NCBI RefSeq assembly: GCF_014697195.1
Contig: NZ_JACJRJ010000023.1
Location: forward strand, 1-60,754
Origin: Cylindrospermum sp. FACHB-282
Lineage (GTDB): Bacteria; Cyanobacteriota; Cyanobacteriia; Cyanobacteriales; Nostocaceae
Direction of reading: 5' to 3'
DNA: 60,754 nt
Below, in pieces: positions 52,584 to 59,052 of the stretch (the first letter of the stretch is position 1; each line of letters opens with the position of its first letter). The notes beneath the pieces are model-generated. The model had not been told where the DNA came from and made no database searches. It was given only the letters and a program-made list of their open reading frames with translations. The translations under genes were made by a program, and so were the position numbers.

Positions 52584-53777
52584 ATGCATTTACCAGAAGA
52601 TAAAAATAAATTTGAGCGCCATAAACCAATTTACCAAGAACTTAACTTTCAAATTATTTGTGCAGTTACACTAATTGCTGTTATGGGAGTCTCTAGCGTA
52701 ACTCCGGCTTTTCCTAACTTAGCTAAAGCCTTAAATATCAACCCAAAAAATTTGGGGTTATTGATTACAGCCTTTACATTACCATCACTGGTATTAGGGC
52801 CTGTTATTGGTCTCCTTGCCGATAGATGGGGAAGAAAAAGAATTATCGTTCCTTCTCTATTTTTATTTAGCATTGCGGGGACAGCTTGCGCCTTTGCTGG
52901 TGATTTTAACTTATTATTATTTTTGCGATTGCTGCAAGGAATTGGCGTAGCTTCATTAATGTCGCTGAGTATTACCTTAATTGGCGATTTATATACAGGA
53001 GATAGACGCACTACCGCAATGGGTTACAGTTCCAGCGTTGGTAGTGTCGGTACAGCAAGTTATCCGTTAATTGGTGGCGCATTAGCTACACTCGGCTGGA
53101 ATTACCCCTTTATGCTGCCTCTAGTAGCCATTCCAGTAGGGTTTCTGGTGTTGTTTGCCCTCAAAAATGAGGAACCAAAAGGCGATCGCAATCTTCAACT
53201 ATATTTAACCAACGCAGGAAAGGTTCTCAAAAATCGGCAGTTATTTGGGCTATTTATTGCCAGTACCGCTAACTTCTTCTTGCTGTATGGTGCTCACGTC
53301 ACATATTTACCACAACTAATTGACGATATCTTCAAAGCACCACCAGCCACAATTGGCATCATACTTTCTAGTGTTTCTGTAGCAATTACAATTACATCTT
53401 CCCAGTTAGGCAGATTAGCCAGAAGATATAAACCCACAGCTTTAATTAGTACATCTTATATTTTATATGCTCTAGCCTTGTTAATTGTTCCCTTGATGCC
53501 AAGTCTCTGGTTTCTATTAATCCCCACAACAATTTTTGGTATAGGTTTAGGAATCGGCTTTCCGAGTATTCAAACACTATTAGCAGATATCGCACCCAGA
53601 GAATATTTAGCAACGGTGATATCAGTCAATGGCACATTTTTTGGATTAGGGCAAACTTTAGGGCCGTTATTGATGGGTATAGCATTTGCTTTTGGCGGCA
53701 TTAGCGGCGTATTTTTTGCAGCAGCCGGTTTTTCAATTTTGACATTTTTCGTCTTTAGATATTGCACTTGCGGCTGA
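52584..53777 (+). CDS. MFS transporter
   Basis: Inner-membrane secondary transporter of 397 residues with about 12 hydrophobic segments, typical of the DHA/sugar-phosphate-like major facilitator group. The loop 2-3 signature is clear: GLLADRWGRKRIIVPSLF. Helix 5 has VGSVGTASYPLIGGAL (antiporter motif C-like region). Substrate cannot be assigned; drug or small-metabolite export is likely. The ATG at 52584 follows only a weak ribosome-binding site. Downstream lies the RNA/repeat region. Confidence 0.92.
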   Translation: MHLPEDKNKFERHKPIYQELNFQIICAVTLIAVMGVSSVTPAFPNLAKALNINPKNLGLLITAFTLPSLVLGPVIGLLADRWGRKRIIVPSLFLFSIAGTACAFAGDFNLLLFLRLLQGIGVASLMSLSITLIGDLYTGDRRTTAMGYSSSVGSVGTASYPLIGGALATLGWNYPFMLPLVAIPVGFLVLFALKNEEPKGDRNLQLYLTNAGKVLKNRQLFGLFIASTANFFLLYGAHVTYLPQLIDDIFKAPPATIGIILSSVSVAITITSSQLGRLARRYKPTALISTSYILYALALLIVPLMPSLWFLLIPTTIFGIGLGIGFPSIQTLLADIAPREYLATVISVNGTFFGLGQTLGPLLMGIAFAFGGISGVFFAAAGFSILTFFVFRYCTCG

Positions 53778-53975
53778 TAGGTTAGTAAGGAGTTATTTAT
53801 TCAAAATCATGTTCTATCTATATCTATACCATAAAGAGACTTAGCTCTCATTTTATTGAGCTTACTTTGTTTAGCTAAACTGACAATGGCTGCTCTTAAT
53901 ATTTTAGATGCGGCTATATTCCTCTCAAGTGGACTAAGGAAAACATTTCTCAAATTATTTAGTTTTTTATGTAAA

Positions 53976-54128
53976 TAGGACTTAAGGGACAGAAAATAGC
54001 AAATATGGGGTATGGTTTGTGTCATTAAAAATTATGATTCGTGCGTTAGGGAACGCACCCTACAGGTAGTTTCCTAAGGCATTAAAAAAGCCTAAAAGAT
54101 GGTAAATTCCTACGGTGCGTAAGTCCTA
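53976..54128. mobile_element. 153-bp MITE-like element upstream of the first RNA unit
   Basis: Ends TAGGACTTAAGGGAC (53976) and ...GGTGCGTAAGTCCTA (54128) are imperfect inverted repeats, and an internal hairpin GTGCGTT/AACGCAC occurs at about 54035-54052. A related element lies at 55368-55532. The remaining bases 53778-53975 contain only a weak 72-codon minus-strand ORF. Confidence 0.6.
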
Positions 54129-54285
54129 GTAAAGTTGGAAGGAAGAAAAACTTTCTTGACTATAAGAGGAGGAAATTGATTTCTAGGCTGAATAACAACG
54201 AAGCGCGAAAATTTGAATATATTAGGCCACAAAAGACGTTGCATTCAAAGTTTCTACAGGGGGTTGTGGTTTCCGCTATAAAAAA

Positions 54286-54655
54286 ATAGAGTGGGAGTAG
54301 GCATTATCAATCGCCATTTATCTCCCACTCTATCATTTGCTACTGGAGCGCTCAGGAATATTTATAGACACTGGCTGTTACTTAGGGGGGCTACATCACC
54401 AACAAAGCCTATACAGATTTATTATTCCTATTGCAGCAAATGTTATAGCCTAATTATTAATACTTGTTTACCTAGTCAATAGTGTAGAACTCATAAAAAA
54501 GTGTGCTTTCCTGTCCCTGATGATCACTTGCTAGACAATCTGTACAAGAGTCGCTTGCTAATTTGGTAAACCGCTTAACAACTCCCTTGAATTTGCTTGT
54601 CTAATTTAAGATAACTGAATTAATTTGATTGTAGTTGCCAATTTGGCATTTTTTT
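54286..54655 (+). ncRNA. Structured RNA unit, copy 1 (unrecognised family)
   Basis: About 370 nt. P1: ATAGAGTGGGAG (54286-54297) / CTCCCACTCTAT (54322-54333), 12 bp. P2: CATTTGCT (54334-54341) / AGCAAATG (54435-54442), closing a domain that includes GAGCGCTCAGGAATA and TATTCCT (P3), and a TATAG/CTATA stem (P4). A TTAGGGGGG segment lies in the apical part. It ends with TTGCCAATTTGGCA plus T-run. The overlapping 63-codon ORF (54291-54482) is not conserved as protein in copy 3. I do not recognise a known riboswitch, 6S, tmRNA or RNase P pattern. Confidence 0.7.
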
Positions 54656-54867
54656 AAAATTTACTATTGTTTATTTTTATTTTTTGACTGCCTTAATCCT
54701 ATATACAGCAGATTGCAACTTGGTGAGGTATAGATTATCGTAGACAACATTGTTGTGCCCCTACCCGTGTACTTCATTTACCTGAAAAATGCTGTAAATG
54801 ATATGTTTGCTTCCAGCGGGTGCTTGGCGTCATTGCATATTTCCCTAAAATAAAAATAGACAAAAAA

Positions 54868-55235
54868 ATAGAGTGGGAGTAGGCATTACCAATCGCCATT
54901 ACTCTCCCACTCTATCATTTGCTGCTGAAGCGCTCAGGAATATGTATAGACACTGCCCGTTAGTTAGGGGGGCTACGTCACCAACAAAGCCTATACAGAT
55001 TTATTATTCCTATTGCAGCAAATGTTATAGCCTAATTATTAATACTTGTTTACCGAGTCAATAGTGTGGAAATCATGAAAAAGTGTGCTTTCCTGTCTTT
55101 GATGATCACTTGCTAGACAATCTGTACAAGAGTCGCTTGCTAATTTGGTAAACCGTTTAACAAGTCCCTTGAATTTGCTTGTCTAATTTAAGATAACTGA
55201 ATTAATTTGATTGTGGTTGCCAATTTGGCATTTTT
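54868..55235 (+). ncRNA. Structured RNA unit, copy 2
   Basis: Very close to copy 1 (period 582 bp). P1: 54868-54879 / 54904-54915. P2: CATTTGCTGC (54916-54925) / GCAGCAAATG (55015-55024), a full 10 bp. P3: AGGAATA (54936-54942) / TATTCCT (55005-55011). P4: TGTATAG (54943-54949) / CTATACA (54991-54997). The 3' half is strongly conserved with copy 1 (GACAATCTGTACAAGAGTCG, ATTTGGTAAACCG) and ends in the same TTGCCAATTTGGCATTTTT. The spacer 54656-54867 has no gene. Confidence 0.72.
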
Positions 55236-55367
55236 ATAGTCTTATTTAGTCTGATTTCCTGAAGTAGTTGGAAGTAAGGGCATATCTAATAGGGCGAAAC
55301 CAGACTCTAGGGAACATCCATGTTGAAGAAGCTTATTTTTTTAAACTTAGGTAGGATTGCTATATAT

Positions 55368-55532
55368 TAGAACTTACGCATTGACAAACAATGGTGAATA
55401 TGTTCATCAATTTTGTTCATTGAAACTCCTATAAATTGTGCGTTAGGGAACGCACACTATATGTAGGATGCGTAAAGAGACGCATCGAAAAAGCTTGAAA
55501 AAAGGGTAAATTGGTACAGTGCGTAAGTCCTA
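55368..55532. mobile_element. 165-bp MITE-like element between RNA copies 2 and 3
   Basis: TAGAACTTACGCATTG (55368) and CAGTGCGTAAGTCCTA (55532) are terminal inverted repeats, 13 of 16 matching, flanked by TATA-rich sequence. An internal hairpin GTGCGTT/AACGCAC is shared with the element at 53976-54128. It explains the larger gap between copies 2 and 3. Confidence 0.65.
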
Positions 55533-55656
55533 TATATGATGAAATTACACAATTTTGTCAACCACTCTCAATACTGTTTAGTTAGCTTAAGATATCCCTA
55601 GTGTTCTGTGAAAAATTGGGATTTTATCTGAACTGTATTGAAACTACTCCAAAAAA

Positions 55657-56029
55657 AGAGAGTGGGAGTAGGCATTACCAATCGCCATTTCTCTCCCACT
55701 CTCTATTTGCTGCTGAAGCGCTCAGGAATATGTACAGACGCTGCCTGTTATTTAGGGGGGGGTTATGTGTAGATTAACGACATTGCCCGTACACCGTTAG
55801 TATTCCTATCGCAGCAAATACCAAGTTTTATTATGAATACTTGTTTGCTGAACTAATAATTTGCAATTTATTAGTAGCTTTGGTTTTTCTCCCGGATAAT
55901 GATTTGTTAGACATTCGTTACAAGAGTCAGTTGGTAATTCAGAAATCCTGGTTAACAACCTGAATTTGCTTGACTCATACAATTTAGCTTGCTTAATTAG
56001 ATGGTGGTTGCCAATTTGGCATTTTTTTT
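55657..56029 (+). ncRNA. Structured RNA unit, copy 3 (diverged)
   Basis: The most diverged copy, about 373 nt, yet it keeps the fold. P1: AGAGAGTGGGAG (55657-55668) / CTCCCACTCTCT (55693-55704), where one T-A pair of copies 1-2 is a G-C pair. P2: ATTTGCTGC / GCAGCAAAT. P3: AGGAATA / TATTCCT. P4: TGTAC (55731-55735) / GTACA (55789-55793), where a T-A pair has become C-G. The apical GGGGGG segment and the TTGCCAATTTGGCA terminator with eight T are retained. Sequence between stems has changed freely. Confidence 0.72.
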
Positions 56030-56112
56030 AAATATTTAAATGTTCGTCACTAACTTCTTAAACCCACTGCGTCTGCTATTAGATGATGTGAAAAGCTCCC
56101 TTATTTGATTTG

Positions 56113-56205
56113 TCAACGACTACGACTGAAAAAAACAGCAGCCAGAACAATCAACCCTAGAAGCGCTAAGGGTACCCACAGGTTAGGTAAATCAGCAAAA
56201 CTCAT
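56113..56205 (-). CDS. Small single-helix membrane protein (30 residues)
   Basis: Minus-strand ORF from ATG 56205, preceded by GGGGAAA at about 10 bp. It reads MSFADLPNLWVPLALLGLIV, then LAAVFFSRSR and stop. There is one hydrophobic helix with a positively charged C-terminal end, the layout of small thylakoid subunits. I cannot match it to a known PSI, PSII, cytochrome b6f or NDH small subunit from memory. The rest of the spacer 56030-56454 has no other clear gene. Confidence 0.55.
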   Translation of the reverse strand: MSFADLPNLWVPLALLGLIVLAAVFFSRSR

Positions 56206-56454
56206 CAGCGTTTCCCCATACTAGAGTGCATTTTTGAAATATAAAAACCTATCCCATCGGCCGCGAACTCGAACTCTGTCTTCTGTGAAAATTCATGAGT
56301 GGCGCAATGCTTGACAACTTCAGCTTCTGATGCGATCGCCGCGTCTAGGCTGATAAATGCCCCGTTATTAATGTACAACAATTACACACAGTTCTTTTGG
56401 TGCGACTTTCAGGGATAATGCCTGTTATCAACCAGGTTGCACGGAGAACTCATA

Positions 56455-59052
56455 ATGACATCTCCAGAAACGGTTATATGGCTACAAGAACGCACGACTT
56501 TAGGAATTCTCTCACCTGAAGTGTTGAATGCGATCGCCCAAATCATAGAATCACAAGTTGTAAGCGCAGAAACAACCCTAGTTAATGAAGGTACTTCCCC
56601 AGAAGCCCTGTATCTGCTTGTAAAAGGTCAACTAGAAAGCGAAACTACCAATAAAAACAACCCAGCTTTAGCTTGTGGGTTCCTTCCCGGTGCAGTGATT
56701 CACCTCCAAGAATTACTGTTAGATGAGTTAACCCCATGCTCAATTACTACAGTAACAGAATGTAATTTATGGGTTGTCCCTGCTGCTAAATTTCGCGCCT
56801 TAGTCAGCCAATACCCAGAAATTGCTCAGGCTTTTTCCCGCCGTTTGGCTCAAGAATTAGCGCAAGTCACATCTGCCTTAACTTACGAACAAGAACGTTC
56901 TGTAGCCTTGCGACCCTATTTAGTCACCAAAGCCCAACGGGGAATTGTCGGTACAAGTCGCTATGCTGTGCGTCTGCGGGAGCAAATACGCGAAGCCGCC
57001 AGTGACCGGGAATCTGTGGAGATTTTCGGGGAACCAGGTTTAGAAAAAGACAATATAGCTGCCTTAATTCACTATGGTTCTCCCCGGCGACGAGAACCGA
57101 TTATTAAGGTCAATTGTGGCATTCTCCAAACTAGCGGTGCAGACTTATTTGGTCGCGCTGGCGGTAAACCAGGACTGTTGGAATGGCTAGGGGAAGGTAC
57201 CCTCGTGCTGAACAATATCCAAGAATTGCCCTCAGAGTTATTACCACTATTGGCGCAGTTGTTGCGAAATAACACCTATACCCCCGCCACTCGTCCGGGA
57301 GAACCAGCAGCCCAAGCCCGCATCAGTAAAGCCCGCATTCTCATGGTTGCAGAGAAAGCGCTGCCGAGTATCGAACGCTGTGTTGGTCATAGTATTAAAG
57401 TGCCACCGCTACGGGTGCGGAAAGCTGATATTCAAGCCCAGGTGCAATATTACATCAGTCTTTACGTCCGGGCTAGAGGCATTGCTAAACCGCAAGTTAC
57501 CCCAGAATCCTTGCGCCGCTTACAGTCTTATGATTTCCCCGGTAATTTGAAAGAGTTAAAAAATCTGGTAGAAAGGGCAATTGTCCAAGCGGGAAAAGCC
57601 CGTGAACTGACTGAAGAAATTTTCTGGCCAGCCCAATCTAAGAAAAAGCAATTTCGCGTCAATCTATTGAATGTCTATCCTGATTTGCGGCGGTTTTTGC
57701 GGAGTCCTTGGTGGCCTGATCGCTTAAACTATGGGTTTACCGTCGTAGTTTTTGCCTTGATGATTGGGGTGTTGTTTCTCGGACCGCAAACACGCGATCG
57801 CAATTTCGCCTTAAATCTATTTTGGGCTTGGTGGTGGCCTTTCTTCCTCTTCCTCTTTCCCTTTTTGGGTCGGATTTGGTGTTCTGTCTGCCCTTTCATG
57901 ATTTACGGAGAAATTACCCAAAAGCTTTCGCTGATGCTGTTTCCTCGACAACTTAAGCGCTGGCCAAGGGAACAAGCAGAGAAATGGGGCGGATGGTTCG
58001 TATTTGGACTATTTACCCTAATTTTCCTCTGGGAAGAACTTTGGCATTTAGAAAACACAGCTTACCTTTCTGCTTGTTTGCTGCTGTTAATTACCGCTGG
58101 GGCGATGATTTTCTCTACCATTTTTGAGCGGCGGTTTTGGTGTCGTTATCTTTGCCCCATTGGTGGCATGAATGGGTTATTTGCTAAACTCTCAATGACT
58201 GAACTCCGGGCACAGCAAGGCATTTGTTCTGCCAGTTGCACCACTTACCAATGCTACAAGGGTGGGCCGCCAAAGGGTGAGGGGATGGAAACTAACGGCT
58301 GTCCGTTGTATTCGCACCCAGCACAGTTGGAAGATAATCGAGATTGTGTGCTGTGCATGACTTGTCTCAAAGCCTGTCCCCATCGTTCCGTTGAGTTTAA
58401 CTTGCGTCCCCCAGGAATTGAATTGTGGACAACTCATGTACCCCGCAGTTATGAAGTGGCTTTGTTATTGTTGCTGTTGGGTGGGGTATATCTGCATCGA
58501 TTGCCAGAATTGCAAACTTGGCTGGGTTTAGAAATCGATTTAACTCAGTTTTGGCCACATTTGGGTTTATCGTTGCTGGCGTTAATTATCCCTGTGGCTA
58601 TTCCTTTTTTAGGATACGGATTAATCCAAGTTTCTTACAGGTTGACTAATTACATTCAACGTTCTCAAGGGAAAGTTCAAAATCGTGTTAAGCCTCGACC
58701 ATTTGTTGAACTTGCCTATGGCTATTTACCATTAGTGTTGGGGGGAAACTTGGCTCATTATCTGCGTTTGGGTTTGGGTGAAGGTGGGCGAATTTTGCCA
58801 ATTACTTTGGCGACTTTTGGGTTAAATGGGGAGCAGTTACCGATATTAGTGGCACATCCTGCGGTGATTGCCTTTTTGCAAGGTTTTACCCTGATTTTTT
58901 CTGTGCTGTTAGCCATAGTTTTAACCCAAAAAATTGCCCGTCAACCGATGCGATCGCCTTTGGCGCTGCGCTCCGCGCAATCGCTTTTTTGGCAACACTT
59001 GGGCGCTATTGGCTTGGGGGCTAGCATGTGGGTGCTGATCATCTCGCAGTAA
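56455..59052 (+). CDS. cNMP-binding / degenerate sigma54-AAA / membrane polyferredoxin fusion
   Basis: An 865-residue fusion from ATG 56455 (GGAGAA upstream); a TTG at 56437 would add six residues. Order: cyclic-nucleotide-type cupin (about 15-135); sigma54-activator-like AAA domain (about 160-390); then several membrane helices with NosR/NapH-type cysteine motifs: WCSVCPFM (about 475), CRYLCPIGG (about 563) and 4Fe-4S CVLCMTCLKACP (about 631), plus CSASCTTYQC. The AAA part is degenerate: Walker A is GEPGLEKD, Walker B reads LVLNNI rather than LDEI, and no GAFTGA loop is seen. It probably senses a signal and moves electrons at the membrane rather than activating sigma54 transcription. Confidence 0.88.
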   Translation: MTSPETVIWLQERTTLGILSPEVLNAIAQIIESQVVSAETTLVNEGTSPEALYLLVKGQLESETTNKNNPALACGFLPGAVIHLQELLLDELTPCSITTVTECNLWVVPAAKFRALVSQYPEIAQAFSRRLAQELAQVTSALTYEQERSVALRPYLVTKAQRGIVGTSRYAVRLREQIREAASDRESVEIFGEPGLEKDNIAALIHYGSPRRREPIIKVNCGILQTSGADLFGRAGGKPGLLEWLGEGTLVLNNIQELPSELLPLLAQLLRNNTYTPATRPGEPAAQARISKARILMVAEKALPSIERCVGHSIKVPPLRVRKADIQAQVQYYISLYVRARGIAKPQVTPESLRRLQSYDFPGNLKELKNLVERAIVQAGKARELTEEIFWPAQSKKKQFRVNLLNVYPDLRRFLRSPWWPDRLNYGFTVVVFALMIGVLFLGPQTRDRNFALNLFWAWWWPFFLFLFPFLGRIWCSVCPFMIYGEITQKLSLMLFPRQLKRWPREQAEKWGGWFVFGLFTLIFLWEELWHLENTAYLSACLLLLITAGAMIFSTIFERRFWCRYLCPIGGMNGLFAKLSMTELRAQQGICSASCTTYQCYKGGPPKGEGMETNGCPLYSHPAQLEDNRDCVLCMTCLKACPHRSVEFNLRPPGIELWTTHVPRSYEVALLLLLLGGVYLHRLPELQTWLGLEIDLTQFWPHLGLSLLALIIPVAIPFLGYGLIQVSYRLTNYIQRSQGKVQNRVKPRPFVELAYGYLPLVLGGNLAHYLRLGLGEGGRILPITLATFGLNGEQLPILVAHPAVIAFLQGFTLIFSVLLAIVLTQKIARQPMRSPLALRSAQSLFWQHLGAIGLGASMWVLIISQ

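Follow-up and report, generated by a model that had tools for sequence, protein, structure and literature searches.

The window analysed here, a whole stretch of 60,754 nucleotides from Cylindrospermum sp. FACHB-282, contains three direct repeats (copies 1, 2 and 3 at 54280-54660, 54862-55240 and 55651-56030), the starts of which are spaced by 582 and 789 nucleotides. What is repeated here, from which strand would it be read, and what might it do in the cell? An earlier note on this DNA had described three tandem copies of an unrecognised structured RNA read from the plus strand. The tandem is found where it was described (54280-56030), with a long hairpin on the low-coordinate side, a set of nested stems and a homopolymer loop. 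Copies 1 and 2 are 95% identical and copy 3 is 74-75% identical to either of them; a fourth copy, 73% like copy 2, lies elsewhere in the source genome (G000:C62:25710-26083). Changes between copies preserve base pairs, as had been noticed, and a protein reading is not kept, the 63-aa plus-strand open reading frames (ORFs) of copies 1 and 2 being absent from copy 3. The explanation that we consider likely is that each copy is an autonomous small-RNA gene lying on the minus strand.

Strand and fold of the repeated unit

Folding energies of single copies do not separate the two strands. The z-scores of copies 1, 2 and 3 are -0.76, -2.19 and -3.04 on the plus strand and -0.91, -3.09 and -3.23 on the minus strand; copy 1 folds no better than its shuffles on either strand, and copies 2 and 3 are low on both. 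The case for structure and for strand is thus comparative, not energetic. It draws on an alignment of 33 loci, 28 of which were used to build a covariance model (R1; R2 is a broader model), and on a later alignment, which 88 of 173 loci entered; one collection of copies was made with a regular expression, which missed divergent copies.

In the alignment fitted to the model (A3, 96 distinct rows), 95.9% of cells are paired and 30 of the 36 helix pairs show changes on both sides, with 234 both-side-change cells against 61.7 in shuffles. None of 500 shuffles reaches any of five covariation measures, and sliding the partners abolishes the signal. Being fitted to the model, this alignment leans toward structure in its covariation count; the persistence of the signal in a larger alignment is what the earlier note had proposed to look for.

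The strand was judged from an alignment built without structure and comprising 95 distinct sequences (the 96 rows less one under 140 nt). The folds of the two strands share 39 pairs; a minus-strand reading of these makes 254 cells G-U, against 61 for a plus-strand reading, and even pairs picked by the plus-strand fold give 257 against 143. Several helix changes in the 33-sequence alignment likewise produce A-C mismatches on the plus strand and therefore G-U pairs on the minus strand. The consensus folds agree, at -113.5 kcal/mol for the minus strand versus -96.8 for the plus strand with the 33 sequences, and -76.9 versus -62.9 with the 95 sequences aligned without structure. A structured RNA on the plus strand would have in its favour that the stems form there too, that copies 2 and 3 are more stable there than their shuffles, and that a T-rich stretch follows the palindrome described below (at least five T in 58 of 96 copies). 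The hairpin at the palindrome end reaches only -4.5 kcal/mol, however, and with the G-U asymmetry, the consensus energies and the strength of the terminator all on the other side, the plus-strand reading was ruled out as very improbable. An RNA drawn on the wrong strand can thus look convincing, and it is the asymmetry between G-U and A-C that decides.

With the strand wrong, nearly every part had been misread. Since the pair changes fit the minus strand, the supposed 5′ hairpin (P1) becomes a 3′ intrinsic terminator, and the end that had seemed terminator-like becomes the promoter side, where a GCCAnnnTGGC palindrome is located. The apical G-run survives as a homopolymer loop, to be read as a C-run (UUAGCCCCCUAA). 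Along the RNA, a variable 5′ part gives way to a conserved 3′ domain, about 165 nt long, in which a rod is built from ATTTGCTGC / GCAGCAAAT (P2), AGGAATA / TATTCCT, a G-U-rich upper helix and the apical C-run loop; then comes the terminator. These elements are placed in the window as follows.

54280-54332, minus strand: copy 1, intrinsic terminator (from the fold)
54335-54343, minus strand: copy 1, P2 3′ arm, pairing with 54433-54441
54385-54390, minus strand: copy 1, apical C-run of 6 C (from the sequence)
54433-54441, minus strand: copy 1, P2 5′ arm, partner 54335-54343, with one G-U that is A-C on the plus strand
54862-54914, minus strand: copy 2, intrinsic terminator (from the fold)
54917-54925, minus strand: copy 2, P2 3′ arm (from the fold)
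54967-54972, minus strand: copy 2, apical C-run of 6 C (from the sequence)
55015-55023, minus strand: copy 2, P2 5′ arm, partner 54917-54925
55651-55703, minus strand: copy 3, intrinsic terminator, hairpin and T7, formerly P1
55705-55713, minus strand: copy 3, P2 3′ arm GCAGCAAAT (from covariation and fold)
55755-55762, minus strand: copy 3, apical C-run of 8 C, formerly the G-run
55811-55819, minus strand: copy 3, P2 5′ arm ATTTGCTGC, partner 55705-55713

A C-run of at least four is present in 93 of 96 copies and is unpaired in the consensus fold. The terminator segment has a mean energy of -22.5 kcal/mol, and 88 of 96 copies end in a T-tract of five or more. A protein-coding reading was rejected on the RNA strand as well, where the median ORF is 30 aa long versus 32 in shuffled sequences and none is longer than expected by chance. 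An intrinsic terminator of its own, a conserved structure and the lack of a conserved ORF are the marks of an autonomous small-RNA gene. Both the strand and the gene are well supported by comparison of the aligned sequences, from which a minus-strand non-coding RNA gene appears very probable.

Promoter-side motif, predicted transcript and 5′ module

How would such a gene be transcribed? All 96 distinct copies carry the GCCAnnnTGGC palindrome no more than 420 nt upstream of the 3′ domain. In 83 of them a TTAAATT-like box comes exactly 33 nt after it; of the others, 11 gave no match to the pattern and two have it displaced. The transcript start was placed about 45 nt past the start of the palindrome, which gives the following predictions for the window.

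54280-54602, minus strand: copy 1, predicted transcript, 323 nt (model match 54278-54442)
54608-54614, minus strand: copy 1, TTATCTT at the -10-like position (from spacing; poorer match)
54637-54647, minus strand: copy 1, palindrome GCCAAATTGGC (from the motif)
54862-55184, minus strand: copy 2, predicted transcript, 323 nt (model match 54860-55024)
55190-55196, minus strand: copy 2, TTATCTT at the -10-like position (from spacing; poorer match)
55219-55229, minus strand: copy 2, palindrome GCCAAATTGGC (from the motif)
55651-55975, minus strand: copy 3, predicted transcript, 325 nt, ending at the T-tract, with an inferred start (model match 55649-55820)
55981-55987, minus strand: copy 3, -10-like box CTAAATT, 33 nt past the palindrome start
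56010-56020, minus strand: copy 3, palindrome GCCAAATTGGC, candidate activator site upstream of the predicted start

The unit of about 370 nt given in the earlier note corresponds to the distance from palindrome to terminator, and the transcripts predicted in the window are shorter, at 323-325 nt; across copies, predicted lengths range from 222 to 435 nt with a median of 327. If the box is a -10 element, the centre of the palindrome falls near -40, the position of class II activator sites. The palindrome may be such an activator site, or it could instead lie inside the transcript. In the proposed scheme each copy would be transcribed autonomously from the minus strand with its own palindrome, -10-like box and intrinsic terminator; the palindrome might recruit an activator, and the transcript of about 320 nt would comprise the variable 5′ part, the interrupted rod presenting the C-run loop and the terminator. 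A wider regulon sharing the palindrome was set aside, as 21 of the 29 exact places of the longer motif TGCCAWNWTGGCAAC in 12 genomes are at the RNA itself and eight elsewhere (own count).

The 5′ module is less regular. Many lineages keep AAGAUAAACGACUUCAAGGGUGUUGUUAUCAGGG just past the predicted start, and it has drifted in the duplicated copies. A helix within the module is unsupported, the consensus energy of 93 distinct 5′ ends being near zero. In some lineages the C-run loop could pair with a 5′ AGGGGCUA block; a general pseudoknot of this kind was rejected, for besides lineages in which it is strong there are 20 copies, of the 93 used, that fall below 0.05 (the other three of the 96 have no C-run of four in the searched part). 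Several loci of distant lineages (L134, L135, L144, L148 and others) carry an extra inverted repeat, GUGUAUCAC...GUGAUACAC, after the 5′ module, which is absent from the copies in the window. A 30-aa ORF (MSFADLPNLWVPLALLGLIVLAAVFFSRSR; 56113-56205, minus strand) located just upstream of copy 3 in the sense of the RNA resembles a one-helix membrane protein.

Distribution, genomic locus and history of the gene

A blastn search with copy 3 found relatives in 170 of the 217 genomes of the family to which the source organism belongs, presumably the heterocyst-forming one. Under strict filters, model R1 found the RNA in 202 of the 217 genomes, 195 of the 206 good-quality ones and 55 of the 56 genera, and in a sample of 388 genomes of the class all 22 matches were within the same family. 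With R2 and laxer filters, nothing reached E 0.001 in 18 genomes from other families, where the best match had E 0.05; among the 15 family genomes without an R1 match only G182 matched (E 2.6e-4). The 11 good-quality family genomes lacking the RNA are G012-G016, G019, G073, G155, G200, G209 and G211; six of them belong to genus g7, two other members of which retain it, and the absences are probably separate losses. Most genomes have one to four copies. Tandem arrays recur, with two in genus g48: nine copies with a period of about 571 in G193 (L136, G193:C1:9073498-9078157; one is weak and partial, E 6e-8) and four tandem copies with a period of about 543 bases in G192 (G192:C1:4956799-4958583).

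The neighbour genes met over the loci are MFS, regulator, ddl and hydrolase genes. Among 88 loci, a few of which overlap, 47 have at least one of ddl, a small ORF, an alpha/beta-hydrolase gene and a DUF4112 gene adjacent to the RNA, and distant lineages are included; eight have the neighbours seen in the window, one has another queried pair, and 32 have no queried gene in the stretch examined. At the common locus, ddl and the small ORF precede the RNA in the same sense (L146 has them inverted), and a convergent hydrolase gene follows downstream. In a tree of 22 chosen copies, those of the window locus, their relatives and one copy from a third place in G004 form a single clade (100/99), within which copies 1 and 2 are sisters (99/97) and copy 3 is sister to a copy of G040 (100/99). 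The tandem is thus older than the split from G040, a later duplication having produced copies 1 and 2. Taken together, the comparative evidence supports an old RNA gene inherited mostly vertically, as read from the sequences. The place between ddl with its small ORF and the hydrolase gene is probably ancestral, and the window locus is secondary and tandemly duplicated; the gene would have been copied from the former to the latter and duplicated there in tandem. Beside the copies of the window, at 56437-59052 on the plus strand, lies an unusual fusion in which cyclic-nucleotide-binding, sigma-54-interaction AAA+ and 4Fe-4S (Fer4_5) segments are joined in one protein.

Could the repeats instead be a mobile element, a MITE-like repeat whose inverted ends mimic an RNA? 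They are multicopy and tandem, and MITE-like elements do lie nearby: the stretches 53976-54128 and 55368-55532, the latter between copies 2 and 3, share common blocks of 37 and 35 bases that are 84-86% alike and have the ends TAGGACTTA / TAAGTCCTA (imperfect at 55368). Against this stand the low copy number in most genomes, the same neighbours across lineages and a tree that tracks loci, and copy 2 as a query was unmatched in 72,556 plasmid and 50,697 phage records. On the plasmid and phage result and the common neighbours, a mobile element was rejected as extremely improbable, and the copies showed no sign of a mobile-element end, a point that the earlier note had wished to see checked. Exact 16-mer scans picked up two hits on viral contigs and 27 on contigs of genomes. 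Five of them (two viral, three cyanobacterial) were aligned; the likeness is confined to the surroundings of the 16-mer, and these five were taken as chance.

Relation to known RNAs and possible mode of action

Is this minus-strand RNA already known under another name? At the gathering score, Rfam 15 gives no match in the window and none in 12 loci with relatives, and relaxing the threshold over 53700-56300 yields a single chance-level match, which lies outside the copies (54118-54190, E 0.45). The comparison with Rfam that had been suggested therefore matched no family. The idea of an unrecognised structured RNA under selection holds as far as the Rfam result, the covariation and the spread over the family are concerned, and fails on the strand. 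Named cyanobacterial motifs mostly carry Rfam numbers in the available part of one survey, and are to that extent covered by these scans (PMC2864571). Among titles, abstracts and main-text passages, a literature search found no published description of the sequence; a supplementary table may hold one.

The long interrupted rod recalls 6S RNA (RF00013). The copies score below the gathering score of that family and the source genome has its 6S gene elsewhere, as the one match over the cut-off (C12, 104.4 bits), so that identity with 6S RNA was rejected. A riboswitch or other 5′ leader was rejected too, as the next gene at the common locus is convergent and not in sense. A closer parallel in arrangement is NsiR1 of Nostoc PCC 7120, which is about 60 nt long and occurs in 12 tandem copies upstream of hetF, with DIF1-motif promoters (PMC9045159). 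As far as described there, NsiR1 shares with the RNA of the window the tandem of slightly divergent small-RNA genes with individual promoters in heterocystous cyanobacteria, and the assertion that a tandem arrangement fits no known small RNA was therefore too strong. The two are not identical by that description: the present units are about 320 nt long, their neighbours do not fit the hetF array and their promoter-side motif is different.

Two unnamed RNAs of the same strain, 268249f (340 nt) and 2462444f (258 nt), come closer in size. They are described as intergenic, terminator-ended, without an assigned function, Northern-verified and abundant, and their levels rise when nitrogen is removed, in ntcA and hetR mutants too; homologs are given for 18 and 24, respectively, of 27 heterocystous genomes and for none of the others (PMC4734099). 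Compared by description only, the RNA might be one of these two, given the similar sizes, the two size classes and the restriction of homologs to heterocystous genomes in that account. In contrast, three genomes of genus g53 (G200, G209 and G211) are without the RNA, and the lengths predicted in G004, about 318 and 250 nt (own count), differ from 340 and 258. We regard the identity as unlikely.

What, then, might the minus-strand RNA do? LhrC of Listeria is reportedly a multicopy small RNA with UCCC loops that bind mRNAs. The likeness is in the way of working only: both are multicopy and expose a conserved single-stranded C-rich loop, found here in 93 of 96 copies; sequence and host are unrelated, and the present RNA has a single C-run on a far larger rod. 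The placing of a conserved C-run in the loop that caps a long rod suggests, as is said of LhrC, pairing with G-rich sites of mRNAs. The RNA would accordingly be a trans-acting regulator, the exposed C-run of which would pair with several mRNAs at G-rich stretches, as a rule their ribosome-binding sites, and additional copies would increase the dose; start of transcription and pairing with targets are both inferred. Exact complements of 12 bases of the loop were found at 30 places in 23 genomes, 13 of them at the RNA; the 17 elsewhere, 10 of which fall in one genome, compare with 53 for a reversed control. Being fewer than the control, they give no support for one long exact target. In one genome a tandem repeat with a period of 166 (L300-L304, G039:C1:4025687-4026362) contains five copies of TTAGGGGGCTAA, an exact complement of the C-run loop. 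The antisense mechanism is offered tentatively, as somewhat doubtful in itself.

Alternatively, the minus-strand RNA might bind a protein, such as RNA polymerase, an RNA-binding protein or a ribosomal factor, and the tandem copies would then raise the dose of a sponge or scaffold. A long rod with internal loops and a single near-invariant loop would suit this role, as would the lack of an excess of exact loop complements in the 23 genomes and the recurrent amplification to nine copies in G193 and four in G192. On the other hand, no ligand is known, a separate 6S RNA is encoded elsewhere in the source genome, and known sponges, to our knowledge, carry a repeated motif rather than one C-run such as is present here. 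Protein binding therefore seems rather unlikely. The most likely account as a whole is a new autonomous multicopy family of small RNAs working via the C-run loop, the mechanism being the conjectural part.

A broader and frankly speculative picture, which is also rather unlikely as it stands, is that of an undescribed regulatory RNA, near-universal in this family and so far found only there, which would be switched on by a dedicated palindrome-binding activator and would set the translation of a regulon through its C-run, with tandem copies of up to nine raising its dose; it may have escaped notice, perhaps through a loss in the lineage to which the main model strain belongs. An RNA that 202 of 217 genomes retain, whose helices covary and whose promoter-side motif is fixed, is probably important, yet it has no Rfam entry. 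The model given here, comprising strand, ends, structure, common locus and natural losses and amplifications, is a usable basis for a knock-out, and it makes testable whether this group of cyanobacteria shares a global RNA regulator.
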